The notes below the pieces were generated by a model. That model did not search any database and had not been told where the DNA came from. It was given only the letters and a program-made list of their open reading frames with translations. A stretch of DNA of 5,724 nucleotides, taken from Gammaproteobacteria bacterium (GTDB lineage Bacteria; Pseudomonadota; Gammaproteobacteria; Chromatiales; Chromatiaceae). Where the stretch lies: positions 1 through 5,724 of the forward strand of contig JAGVUH010000502.1 in assembly GCA_019136395.1 (NCBI GenBank), read 5' to 3'. Shown here piece by piece: positions 2,045 to 5,724 of the stretch; the first letter of the stretch is position 1, and each line of letters opens with the position of its first letter. The translations under genes were made by a program, and so were the position numbers.

Positions 2045-3391
2045 ATGATCCGCCGACCATTTCTTGATCGTACCCTACCTTGGGTGATTGCGGTTCTCTG
2101 CTATTTCCCGATCGGGTTGCCAGCCGATACCCTCATCACCTCCATGAATGCCGTCACCGTGCGTGTGCTATGCCATGCTACCAATGGTGATGAGGGTACC
2201 GGCTCAGGCTTCATCCTGACTGGTGGCACGCATATCGCCACCAATTGGCATGTGGTCTCCTGCGTTGACCAGGATGGCAAAGTCAGCGTCCTATTGGATA
2301 CAGAACCCCCCTCCTTGGTCGATGCCCAGGTCCTGGAGTGGGACATGGGCAAGGACCTGGCGGTACTGAAACTGCATCGCCTTGTCGCCCGACCCTCAGC
2401 CCACTTTGCCACCCTCGCCACACTGGCGCAGCGGGACCCCGTGGTCGCCGTCGGATTTCCGGGGGGCGCCGATGACCAGGGTGATCTGCAAGCCCTCAGC
2501 GCGGCTACCCTGACTGAAGGGATCATCGGCCGCCTGTTGCCCCGCGGGGATGGGGCCGGTCCTCCGCTGGTCCAGATCAGCGCGGCCATCAACCCCGGCA
2601 ATTCCGGCGGTCCCCTTTTTGATGAGGCCGGACGGGTCATCGGGATCAACACCCTCAAGGCCCTGGCCATGGTCCCAACGGTCAACGAGGAAGGCACCCT
2701 CGGTCTGGAACGGGTGGTGGTGGGCGAGGGCCTGGGCTGGGCCGTTGCGGCGGATGCCCTGCTGCCCCTGCTGGACCGGGCTGGCATCCCCTACCAAGTC
2801 AGCCAGCGTCGCATCACCGCCCTGGAACGTTGGTGGTATCGGGAACCGGTCCTGGTCGGTGCCCTGGGTCTGCTGGGCCTCCTGCTCCTGGCCATCCTCT
2901 ACCAACTCTCCACCCAAACGGGCCGGGCACGGTTGCAGGCCGGGTTCACCCGAGCCATGGGACAGCGGCGTTCCCAGTCTGAAGTCCCGCCCATTCCAAC
3001 ACCACCAGCCCAGACCCCCCTCCACCCACCCGTCCAGTCGCCGGTCCACCAACCCATCCTCCGCGTGGTTGCGGGTCCCTATGCCGGACAGACCCTCCCC
3101 CTGGCGACGCGACCGATCGCCATCGGGCGAAATCCCGCCCTGGTGCAACTGGTCATACCCGCGGAGGAGAGCGCCGTCAGCCAACGTCATGCCGTGGTGG
3201 GCCATGACGCCGCCCAGGGCGGCTTTTATGTCGAGGACTGCTGGTCCACCAATGGCGTCTTTCTGGCCGCTGGACCGGGGCGGGCAGGGGACGCGACCCG
3301 CCTCCAGCCCGGTCAAGCCCAGTCACTGGCGCCGGGCGCCCGTTTTTATCTCGCCACCCCGGCCATCAGTTTCGAGGTGGATTACCAATGA
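2045..3391 (+). CDS. Membrane-anchored trypsin-like serine protease with cytoplasmic FHA domain
   Basis: The 448-residue product starts with a signal sequence (charged MIRRPFLDR, hydrophobic residues 13-25, possible cleavage after LPA27). A trypsin-like domain of the DegP/HtrA-like fold follows (about 34-250) with a complete triad: His69 in TNWHVV, Asp104 in KDLAVLKL and Ser187 in GNSGGP. No PDZ domain follows. A transmembrane helix lies at 269-288; the Arg/Lys-rich stretch after it predicts protease outside, C-terminus inside. A Pro-rich linker (314-337) leads to an FHA domain (about 338-447) with its key elements: GR (361-362), S379-x-x-H382 and STNG (401-404). FHA domains bind phosphothreonine peptides, so a kinase-dependent partner is expected; the neighbouring kinase is the obvious candidate. 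Cys43 and Cys73 flank the active-site His and may form a disulfide. The ATG at 2045 is the first start after an in-frame TGA (2030-2032); no Shine-Dalgarno is visible. The gene lies 60 bases upstream of the kinase gene, probably in one operon. The protease's substrate is unknown. Confidence 0.93.
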   Translation: MIRRPFLDRTLPWVIAVLCYFPIGLPADTLITSMNAVTVRVLCHATNGDEGTGSGFILTGGTHIATNWHVVSCVDQDGKVSVLLDTEPPSLVDAQVLEWDMGKDLAVLKLHRLVARPSAHFATLATLAQRDPVVAVGFPGGADDQGDLQALSAATLTEGIIGRLLPRGDGAGPPLVQISAAINPGNSGGPLFDEAGRVIGINTLKALAMVPTVNEEGTLGLERVVVGEGLGWAVAADALLPLLDRAGIPYQVSQRRITALERWWYREPVLVGALGLLGLLLLAILYQLSTQTGRARLQAGFTRAMGQRRSQSEVPPIPTPPAQTPLHPPVQSPVHQPILRVVAGPYAGQTLPLATRPIAIGRNPALVQLVIPAEESAVSQRHAVVGHDAAQGGFYVEDCWSTNGVFLAAGPGRAGDATRLQPGQAQSLAPGARFYLATPAISFEVDYQ

Positions 3392-3451
3392 CGGCGTTAC
3401 GCGTGGACACCGCCTGTCTCAACCCGTGTACAGCGTGTTCGGTTTTGAGTT
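3392..3451 (+). other. Short spacer between the protease-FHA and kinase genes
   Basis: These sixty bases have no terminator-like hairpin or T-run and no recognisable promoter, which favours co-transcription. Only a weak GAG (3447-3449) lies immediately before the kinase ATG, too close for an efficient Shine-Dalgarno, so kinase translation may be inefficient or coupled to that of the protease gene. Confidence 0.55.
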
Positions 3452-5389
3452 ATGACGGCATCAGACCCTAGCCGTTGTCCGCACTGTTTCGCTCCCCTCG
3501 TCGGCATGCCGTGCCCAGCGTGTGGCTGGCGCACCGGGCTGGACAACTCCCCGCCCGCCCTCGCCCTCGGCCGGGTCCTGGATGGCCGTTACCGCATCGG
3601 CCGGGTCCTCGGCCACGGCGGCTTCGGCATCACCTACCTCGCCTGGGACGACAACCTCCACCTGCGGCTGGCCATCAAGGAGTATTTCCCCCGTGACAGC
3701 GCGGGGCGCGCTCCGGACGGCGTCAGCCTCGCCATCTACTCCGGTCAAGCCGGCGACCAGTTCGCCTACGGCCTCGAGCGCTTCCTCGAAGAGGCCCGCG
3801 CCCTGGCCCACTTCGACCAGCATCCGGGCATCGTCACCGTCAAAAACTTCTTCCGCGCCCATGGCACCGGCTACTGTGTCATGGACTACGTGGCAGGCAT
3901 TACCCTGCGTCACTACCTGGAGCAACAACCGGGCGGCCGGATCAGCGTCGCGGATGCCCTCACACTCCTCATGCCCGTCATGGATGCCCTGCGGGCGGTG
4001 CATAAAGAAGGCCTCCTGCACCGCGACCTGGCCCCGGACAACATCTACCTGACTGAAGACGGGCGCATCAAACTCCTCGACTTCGGCGCCGCCCGCTTCG
4101 CCGCCAGCGAGCACAGCAAGAGCCTCTCCATCATCCTCAAGCCCGGTTACGCCCCGGAAGAGCAGTACCGGACCCGGGGCAAGCAAGGCCCCTGGACCGA
4201 CGTTTACGGTCTCGCCGCCACCTGCTACCGTGCCATTACTGGCCAGGTCCCGCCGGAATCCCTGGACCGGCTCGACCAGGATGAACTGGTGCCCCCCTCC
4301 AGACTGGGGATTGCCATCACCCCTGGACAGGAGCGCGTCCTGCTCAAGGCCCTAGCGGTCAAGGCGGAGCAGCGCTGGCCGGACATGGCGTCCTTTCAAC
4401 AGGCTTGGCGCACGGAACCGCCGGCACGGCCCGCGGAACCGGTGATTCTCCCCTCGCCGGACATCAAGCGGAAGGTGCCGGCGCCAGCGCCACCCGTCGG
4501 CGTTTCACGGTCCGAACCTGGGAAGAATAACCCGCAGGGATTCCTCTCGAGCATCTTGGATGTTTTTTTACCTGGGCTCTTGGTGGCGTTCGCTGGCTTT
4601 TTCTTCGCTGAATTAGTGGCATACCACAAACTGGATCATGACGTCACCAAGCCGGCTATAGCGATGTCTGAAGCGGTGGCGACCACGGCACCCGCCGTGC
4701 AGTCGCATGAACCAGCGATCCCCCCAACGCCAGCAACCCCAGGGGAGAAATTGCCGATTTACTTTGCCGCCGAATTGGCGCCCACAGCTAACGCGCCTCC
4801 GGAAGCGCCCCTCTGTTATAAGTTCATGGTCGCCGGTCCGGAAGAGCAATTGCGGAAACTCAAGGCCAAATATCCGGGCCTGTATGACGAACAGATTACG
4901 ACCAACGGCGAGGGCGGCCAAAACCTCATGGCGAAACGCCGAGACGAGACCGGGAAAGAGATTACCTATTTTTATTCGACCAGCCCCAAGGTTTGTAACG
5001 ATTACCAACAGGCAGTGCTAACACCCCATACCTCGGTCAGGGGTGGTCAATCCTCGGAAACTCGGATAGCAGCTATCCCCGCAGCTAATTCTGCCCTCAA
5101 TGGTGCCTATACCGGGAACGGTTCCAATGCAGATCTGCATATATTTGTCGAGAATGACTTTGCCGTGTTGACGCTGAAGGGGGATGGATGCATAGGTCAA
5201 TTAGAGGGAAGCACGCAAGTTGTTTCGGCGAATAATTGGCGTGTAATAGCGGTCGATGCCGATTCTCCGTGCGTTATTGATTTGCGACGTGCCGGACCAT
5301 TGTCATTTACCGTGGAGCAGGGTCCAGGTTGTACTTATTATCACGGATTCAGTTGCGAGTTTACGGGCTATGTTACGAAGAGTCGGTAA
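3452..5389 (+). CDS. Transmembrane Ser/Thr protein kinase with N-terminal zinc ribbon and extracytoplasmic Cys-rich C-terminus
   Basis: The 645-residue product opens with a zinc-ribbon motif (C9-x2-C12, C21-x2-C24). The Hanks-type kinase domain (about 47-320) has the Gly loop GHGGFG (54-59), Lys76 in AIKEYFP, a helix-C Glu at 113 or 114, HRDLAPDN (190-197, catalytic Asp192), DFG (210-212), APEE (234-237), Asp250 and Arg308. The AIKEYFP motif marks a bacterial subfamily. The Lys usually two residues after the catalytic Asp is Ala194. A Pro-rich, basic juxtamembrane stretch (322-363) precedes one transmembrane helix (about 364-392), so the rest should be outside the cytoplasm. Outside are a Pro/Ala linker, a segment with Cys455 and Cys515, and a terminal beta-rich module (about 546-645) with Cys580, 607, 627 and 635 and the motif GCTYYHGFSCEF. 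The ATG at 3452 follows an in-frame TGA (3446-3448) and keeps the whole zinc ribbon; its ribosome site is poor. The kinase is certain; its signal and targets are not known. Confidence 0.95.
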   Translation: MTASDPSRCPHCFAPLVGMPCPACGWRTGLDNSPPALALGRVLDGRYRIGRVLGHGGFGITYLAWDDNLHLRLAIKEYFPRDSAGRAPDGVSLAIYSGQAGDQFAYGLERFLEEARALAHFDQHPGIVTVKNFFRAHGTGYCVMDYVAGITLRHYLEQQPGGRISVADALTLLMPVMDALRAVHKEGLLHRDLAPDNIYLTEDGRIKLLDFGAARFAASEHSKSLSIILKPGYAPEEQYRTRGKQGPWTDVYGLAATCYRAITGQVPPESLDRLDQDELVPPSRLGIAITPGQERVLLKALAVKAEQRWPDMASFQQAWRTEPPARPAEPVILPSPDIKRKVPAPAPPVGVSRSEPGKNNPQGFLSSILDVFLPGLLVAFAGFFFAELVAYHKLDHDVTKPAIAMSEAVATTAPAVQSHEPAIPPTPATPGEKLPIYFAAELAPTANAPPEAPLCYKFMVAGPEEQLRKLKAKYPGLYDEQITTNGEGGQNLMAKRRDETGKEITYFYSTSPKVCNDYQQAVLTPHTSVRGGQSSETRIAAIPAANSALNGAYTGNGSNADLHIFVENDFAVLTLKGDGCIGQLEGSTQVVSANNWRVIAVDADSPCVIDLRRAGPLSFTVEQGPGCTYYHGFSCEFTGYVTKSR

Positions 5390-5439
5390 ACGGGGATGCC
5401 AGTATCTTTGTGAATGCTACATCTGAAAGGTGCGAGGGG

Positions 5440-5631
5440 GATTACGGACAGCCCACGATTTGGACAGCGGCCTTTCCGAATACGCCTAGGGATGGGTTCT
5501 TCTGGTCTTCGTTGCCGAATGCCAACGTTTGGTACGGCATGTGGAGCGTCAATTTTAACAATGGCTACGTCGGCAGCAACAGCCATAATTACGTTCGGAG
5601 GTACGTTCGTCTCGTGCGCGGCGGACAGTGA
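5440..5631 (+). pseudogene. 3' fragment of a DUF1566 (Lcl C-terminal type) domain gene
   Basis: The frame reads DYGQPTIWTAAFPNTP, then FFWSSLPNANVWYGMWSVNF, and ends in YVRLVRGGQ before the TGA at 5629-5631. These are the ordinary C-terminal landmarks of DUF1566 domains, a C-type-lectin-like fold found in secreted or surface proteins. The N-terminal half of the domain, normally with a WRLP-type motif, is absent. The recognisable part begins only about 50 bases after the kinase stop, in a different frame, and the upstream codons in this frame overlap the kinase's own C-terminus. A GTG at 5410 could start a 73-residue product, but its ribosome site is poor (GGGG at 5392-5395, 14 bases away) and such a product would be half a domain. 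I read it as a remnant left by recombination or deletion, although a short expressed ORF cannot be excluded. Confidence 0.65.
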
Positions 5632-5636
5632 CTTTT

Positions 5637-5654
5637 GCCGCGCAGCGGTCTTTT
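5637..5654 (+). terminator. Candidate Rho-independent terminator after the kinase and DUF1566 fragment
   Basis: CCGC (5638-5641) and GCGG (5645-5648) pair around a GCA loop, extended by a G-U pair (5637 with 5649), and are followed by CTTTT (5650-5654). The stem is GC-rich but only 4-5 bp, and the T-run is four bases. It is a plausible end for the protease-kinase transcript. Confidence 0.45.
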
Positions 5655-5662
5655 GGCCTACT

Positions 5663-5700
5663 TGACGCCCGCCGCCCCAACCCCGGGGCGGTAGGCGTCA
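5663..5700. repeat. Strong GC-rich inverted repeat (hairpin)
   Basis: TGACGCC-CG-CCGCCCC (5663-5678) and GGGGCGG-TA-GGCGTCA (5685-5700) form a 16-position stem: 7 bp, one G-U pair, one C-A mismatch, then 7 bp, around a six-base AACCCC loop. There is no T-run on either side, so it is not a standard Rho-independent terminator. It may be a dispersed intergenic palindrome (REP-like), a transcript-end stabiliser or a recombination-related structure. The pairing is certain; its function is not. Confidence 0.7.
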
Positions 5701-5724
5701 GAGTCGAGGGCTTGGGCCGCCCCT

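Follow-up and report, generated by a model that had tools for sequence, protein, structure and literature searches.

The stretch of DNA analysed here, referred to as the window, comprises 5,724 bases of contig JAGVUH010000502.1 (assembly GCA_019136395.1) from a gammaproteobacterium placed in the Chromatiaceae, and all coordinates are given on its forward strand. Its central feature is a pair of neighbouring genes, both on the + strand and separated by 60 bases. The first (2045-3391) encodes a protein of 448 residues that joins a trypsin-like protease to an FHA domain through a transmembrane (TM) helix, as deduced from its open reading frame (ORF), Pfam, alignment and an AlphaFold2 model; the second (3452-5389) encodes a Hanks kinase of 645 residues with an N-terminal ribbon-like motif, a TM segment and a predicted extracytoplasmic region, as deduced from its ORF, Pfam and comparison with solved structures.

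The model of the protease-TM-FHA protein (mean pLDDT 85) consists of a signal or anchor helix at residues 5-24 (2057-2116), the protease body, a helix at residues 268-289 (2846-2911) that hydropathy also identifies as a TM helix, and an FHA body at residues 337-447 (3053-3385). Pfam places a Trypsin_2 match at residues 53-201 (2201-2647; E 6.4e-26) and an FHA match at residues 359-434 (E 2.4e-7). The nearest solved relatives of the protease, by sequence as well as by fold, are the HtrA proteases (DegQ, DegS and Deg1 in Foldseek), and the presence of a His-Asp-Ser triad in an HtrA-type fold places it with the HtrA/Deg (S1C) proteases. DegS is membrane-anchored, and the window protein is likewise anchored; it differs from DegS and DegQ, whose fold and triad it shares, in that a TM helix and a predicted cytoplasmic FHA domain stand where no PDZ domain was matched by Pfam, and full-length NCBIfam HtrA models scored far under their cut-offs. 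In an alignment of 39 sequences (the window protein and 38 of its 120 listed homologues) the triad H69, D104 and S187 is invariant in all 39, and the same is true of G361, R362, H382 and G404 of the FHA domain. FHA domains that read phosphate are recognised by the residues of their GR, SxxH and NG motifs, and in the window protein these are complete (G361/R362, S379, H382 and N403/G404). Eighty loci retained by a contig scan with the protease as query look like ordinary HtrA genes in identity and matched range and were discarded. As a separate observation, carriers of the protease-FHA protein (P0090, P0115 and P0118) include the names Desulfamplus, Magnetobacterium and Magnetominusculus, which are magnetotactic genera.

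The kinase has four cysteines (9, 12, 21 and 24) in the ribbon-like motif at residues 9-24 (3476-3523), followed by the kinase domain at residues 47-269 (3590-4258; Pkinase, E 6.1e-27), in which K76, H190-R191-D192, N197 and D210-F211-G212 are invariant in 26/26 aligned sequences; its best solved relative is PpkA. The sole hydrophobic segment, predicted to span the membrane, lies at residues 368-386 (4553-4609), and six further cysteines (455, 515, 580, 607, 627 and 635) lie beyond it, in the predicted extracytoplasmic region (4637-5389). The model of this ectodomain is poor (pLDDT 51). P0121, P0122 and P0123 match the end of the protein down to the final residues; in other paralogues the common ectodomain stretch is followed by an Lcl_C domain. 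The initial annotation had described two same-strand neighbours 60 bases apart, an intact His69/Asp104/Ser187 protease with a TM helix, an intact FHA domain, and a Hanks kinase with a TM helix and a cysteine-containing extracytoplasmic region, and all of this anatomy is confirmed. Its choice of R381 as a control residue of the FHA domain was mistaken, since the arginine that contacts the phosphate is presumably R362 of the GR motif, following the usual FHA rule.

Linkage of the protease and kinase genes

Conservation of the two genes as neighbours in related genomes had been named beforehand as the point on which the initial annotation should be judged, and it was addressed in two ways. When 118 listed homologues of the protease were compared with 120 listed homologues of the kinase, 15 of the 118 were found on a contig exactly equal in size to that of a listed kinase homologue, while shifted sizes gave 0.71 on average; a few of these 15 matches may be coincidental, the members of the pairs P0065/P0127 and P0003/P0218 having different sources. 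The tails of the kinases on the equal-size contigs are Sel1, FKBP, Lcl_C, FGE-sulfatase and others. In Thiocapsa imhoffii the protease is CKO25_18960 and the kinase CKO25_18955, locus tags that we take to be neighbouring from the usual step of five.

Secondly, genome sets from outside the Chromatiaceae were surveyed. The protease-FHA protein was found in 1/369 genomes of a class draw, in 2/39 of the family of genome G207, in 1/194 and 2/86 of the sets around G589, and in 1/53 around G127, whose family was reached through a pufL probe; five genomes carry it in all (G207, G589, G610, G412 and G703), the protein of G703 being the weakest match (32% identity) with its FHA domain confirmed. In four of these five genomes the nearest kinase of the family lies 1.1-4.4 kb from the protease on the same contig, and 8 of the 16 kinase matches in the five genomes are on the contig of the protease. 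Under uniform placement the chance of linkage within 20 kb in 4/5 genomes is about 4e-6. The linked pair occurs in three lineages besides the Chromatiaceae-like lineage of the window; G589 and G610 are counted as one event because they have flanking genes in common (dxs, the farnesyl diphosphate synthase gene and xseA). In each of these two genomes, all three kinase matches are found within 15 kb of the single protease. Neighbours therefore recur as had been predicted, and chance adjacency of the pair is ruled out by the equal-size contigs together with the linkage in genomes. No description of a protease-TM-FHA protein beside a kinase was found in the literature, in a search of titles and the starts of abstracts that left most subscription papers outside.

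The association is asymmetric. A kinase of the family was detected at E<=1e-60 in 20 of the 369 genomes of the class draw, 19 of which gave no protease match at E<=1e-30; conversely, a kinase is present in all five genomes with the protease-FHA protein, and kinases outnumber the protease.

A proposed phosphorylation module in related genomes

In relatives the pair belongs to a larger group of genes. Locus L103 of G207 carries, on one strand, genes for a TM kinase with an FGE-sulfatase tail, a vWA-TM-FHA protein, a fusion of PP2C, protease and FHA, a ribbon-FHA protein and a PP2C; the fusion has 659 residues in the order PP2C-TM-protease-TM-FHA. The loci of G589 (L106/L146) and G610 (L110/L147) each contain three kinases, PP2C genes, further FHA proteins and a vWA-TM-FHA protein, together with a MotA/ExbB-like protein, a coiled-coil membrane protein and an AAA protein. 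PP2C and the protease-FHA protein are encoded by separate genes in G589 and are fused in G610, G207 and G412; in the fusion of G412 only the second membrane segment scores above threshold. In G703 (L115) the protease-TM-FHA gene, a gene for a vWA-like membrane protein and a kinase gene are consecutive, accompanied by a further FHA gene; the ORFs scanned there gave a vWA match and no PP2C. Ribbon kinase, PP2C and vWA occur together at L103, L106/L146 and L110/L147 and not in the window. A similar grouping of ribbon kinase, PP2C and vWA is the TerY-P triad. Genes for a zinc-ribbon kinase, PP2C and vWA are also found together in actinobacterial GTPase systems (PMC7159879), from which the present loci differ in that vWA is fused to a TM segment and FHA, a protease-FHA protein is added and no GTPase was seen. 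The finding is thus real and larger than first described: it is not the two-component-like unit of the initial annotation, for the relatives show a multi-gene module of Ser/Thr kinase, PP2C and FHA signalling to which a cross-membrane protease has been added, with extra FHA proteins and, in some genomes, several kinases per protease.

It is proposed that the two genes form the core of a Ser/Thr-phosphorylation module spanning the inner membrane, in which varied kinase inputs are coupled through FHA to one shared periplasmic HtrA-like protease; we hold this reading tentatively, at a probability a little below even (about 0.45). We infer FHA-kinase binding, gating of the protease and the direction of the signal as follows. 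Kinases with exchangeable C-terminal sensor domains, whose catalytic residues are intact, would phosphorylate themselves or their neighbours in the cytoplasm, and the protease protein would bind the resulting phosphothreonine through its cytoplasmic FHA domain; this binding may recruit, cluster or switch the shared protease, and PP2C, where it is present (some relatives have it in one chain with protease and FHA), would reset the state. The module is supported by the intact and invariant catalytic and FHA residues, by the linkage, by the PP2C genes clustered with or fused to the protease gene, and by the likeness of the kinase to PpkA, which works with an FHA protein in its own pathway (PMC5995506). 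Kinases are regarded as the varied inputs and the protease-FHA protein as the shared output because 19 of the 20 kinase genomes have no protease match while every protease genome has a kinase, because kinases outnumber the protease, and because some genomes encode phosphatase and protease as one protein. PP2C is a cytoplasmic enzyme, so the PP2C fusions support a periplasmic protease lying between two cytoplasmic domains. An FHA protein that engages a co-encoded kinase has been described on a mycobacterial plasmid, where MupFHA binds the activation loop of PknQ and lowers its autophosphorylation; the abstract of that report mentions no protease (PMC4238996).

Several observations weigh against this proposal. 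In G412 the protease lies on a 12.7-kb contig and the best kinase near the start of another contig. In both Desulfobacterota genomes (G589 and G610) no TM segment is seen in the kinase closest to the protease; the kinases that do have one lie at a distance of 9-15 kb. No PP2C is seen within the window, whereas PpkA-like kinases with PP2C and FHA partners are found in the relatives. Within the FHA domain S379 and N403 vary among homologues, the latter being listed neither as invariant nor at the 90% level, and the protease could act alone with the FHA domain as a mere anchor. The topology of the initial annotation shared this mixed outcome: the predicted helices and the PP2C-TM-protease-TM-FHA fusions agree with it, and its statement that protease and kinase ectodomain meet outside the cytoplasm fails for the nearest Desulfobacterota kinase, since no TM segment is seen there.

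The main rival, which we consider unlikely, is the reverse direction of signalling, in which the protease, docked through its FHA domain on kinases in their phosphorylated form, would end or reset the signal by trimming or shedding the kinase ectodomains. It would draw on the same anatomy and linkage, and variation is found in the kinase ectodomains but not in the protease; on the other hand, the nearest kinases of G589 and G610, showing no TM segment, perhaps have no ectodomain to be trimmed, and 19/20 genomes that carry such kinases gave no match to the protease.

It is rather improbable that the two proteins have separate functions, with the protease serving envelope quality control, the FHA domain serving as a tether and the kinases lying nearby through shared regulation. 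The frequency of kinases without the protease is in line with such an arrangement, but the linkage across lineages, the PP2C fusion and the invariant FHA core speak against it. A module for conflict or self-destruction, in which the kinases would detect an invader or harm to the envelope and the protease would be the effector that does the damage, is judged quite unlikely as well. The window kinase matches PADLOC models, the best being PD-T4-6 at E 6.5e-46, and NCBIfam MAD6 under its cut-off, and the company of vWA, PP2C, FHA and FGE domains has parallels in vWA/PP2C/kinase and retroelement-linked systems of multicellular bacteria (PMC7159879). Similarity of the kinase domain alone, however, explains the PADLOC matches, and the protease is of a periplasmic quality-control type. 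Moreover, no phage or plasmid link emerged from the searches of plasmids and viral contigs: relatives of the protease were absent from both, and those of the kinase were absent from the viral contigs and, among plasmids, confined to seven Azospirillum records with <60% identity.

A variant of the PpkA-PppA-Fha pathway that regulates type VI secretion, in which FHA reads phosphothreonine and which resembles the relatives in its PpkA-like kinase, PP2C and FHA genes (PMC5995506), is very improbable: no type VI secretion genes were recognised in the subset of ORFs scanned at L103, L106/L146, L110/L147 and L115, and the flanks in G589 and G610 are dxs, farnesyl diphosphate synthase and xseA. A difference from that pathway is that FHA is here fused to a protease.

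The linkage in several distant bacterial groups suggests a little-known way to steer a protease by phosphorylation. If the proposed coupling is true, it would constitute a direct route from cytoplasmic phosphothreonine to a protease outside the cytoplasm, a route for which, to our knowledge, few bacterial examples exist.

Kinase tails and retroelement rewriting

The listed kinase homologues carry many different C-terminal domains behind a conserved kinase domain, and it is these tails that are exchanged in the family. In the window an out-of-frame remnant of an Lcl_C (DUF1566) domain lies behind the kinase at 5329-5631 on the + strand (PF07603 positions 61-117 of 117; E 4.2e-8, just below the curated cut-off), and it may be the scar of a domain exchange. 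As a side observation, in G382 (L111, 1065-8547) a PEGA-domain kinase adjoins a bacterial alpha-2-macroglobulin, a protease-trapping protein.

DUF1566 is a common target domain of diversity-generating retroelements (DGRs) (PMC6642488). One pattern caught 15 Lcl_C tails in 14 proteins, out of about 38 listed Lcl_C kinases; the tails vary at 16 columns, mostly among Y, G, S, D and N. The residues K, E, Q, M and W occupy 3 of 208 cells at these columns, compared with 56 of 194 at variable columns upstream in the domain (13 tails were counted after dropping P0129 for its extra residue and P0156 as a duplicate; the upstream set comprised 13 proteins including P0129). At the level of protein sequence, this pattern is a putative signature of adenine mutagenesis by a DGR.

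Rewriting of a kinase tail can be followed at the DNA level in G610, a metagenome-assembled genome of Desulfamplus, where a reverse transcriptase (RT)-like gene lies beside a template (L138). Compared with the 101-base template core, the local target is changed at 20/29 A sites and at 0/72 other sites. The tail of STK-C, the kinase adjoining the PP2C-protease-FHA gene of the same genome, is changed at 18/29 A sites and 0/72 others (p 9e-13), so that its variable repeat (VR) differs from the template repeat (TR) at A sites only, as is expected of a DGR variable protein. NCBIfam models match the RT only below their cut-offs, so it is assigned to its type by the A-only pattern and by the motifs IGNLISQ and YMDD. 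Other kinases were rejected as copies of this template, with non-A sites changed in STK-B (18/72) and in kinases of G589 (29/72 and 17/72); STK-A of G610 is without a tail of the template type, and the TM kinases of the G589 and G610 clusters show no match to the template. A simple reading of this tail is opposed by STK-C itself (L110, 6135-7910): in the assembly its frame is broken within the FGE domain, ahead of the rewritten tail, and its ORF shows no TM segment; its G589 counterpart, of 410 residues, shows neither a TM segment nor an FGE tail. The STK-C tail may therefore be cytoplasmic. Within the window, the kinase does not qualify as a DGR target, its Lcl_C remnant being out of frame and no direct repeat being found in 3400-5724.

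DGR targets that combine an N-terminal Ser/Thr kinase with a C-terminal C-type lectin domain are known from cyanobacteria (PMC7517822), and the retroelement-rewritten tail of the Desulfamplus kinase resembles them; the present kinases differ in standing beside a protease-FHA protein, and the window kinase has no in-frame domain of lectin fold. Such retroelement-diversified kinases, described from cyanobacteria with no defined output (PMC7517822), would gain a concrete partner. By extension, retroelement rewriting and domain exchange might together renew the sensor tails of an evolvable repertoire of receptor kinases, all reporting through FHA to one cross-membrane protease, a possible but doubtful view.

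RT-like genes with SQ motifs also lie beside FGE-like tails at three loci in the family of G207 (L131, L132 and L143), and they are probable further retroelements; conflict systems are known in which FGE domains accompany retroelements (PMC7159879). A protein search with the RT-like frame of G378 returned six organism-named matches among the best 120 of 7,948, none of them from Chromatiaceae.

Remaining features of the window

Upstream of the pair, an ORF that is open at the window start (3-1148, + strand) contains 10 Sel1 stretches and is 94.8% identical over 381 residues to residues 478-858 of P0206, a Sel1-repeat kinase of 858 residues. The ORF is the C-terminal, Sel1-bearing portion of another member of the kinase family, so the window protease lies between two such kinases. 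Between this ORF and the protease gene, a small lipoprotein-like ORF (1390-1899, + strand) shows a lipobox, LVGC, by eye; it gave no family match in Pfam, NCBIfam or PADLOC, and its membership in the unit is uncertain. A terminator-like hairpin is located at 5615-5644, at the very end of the Lcl_C remnant, in a region where the number of such sites is not above that in shuffled sequences. Near 2045 (1751-2500) the G+C content climbs from about 0.40 on the upstream side to about 0.66 on the downstream side, and it drops to about 0.52 in the kinase ectodomain; these steps fit either a sequence pieced together by exchange or a joint in the assembly.

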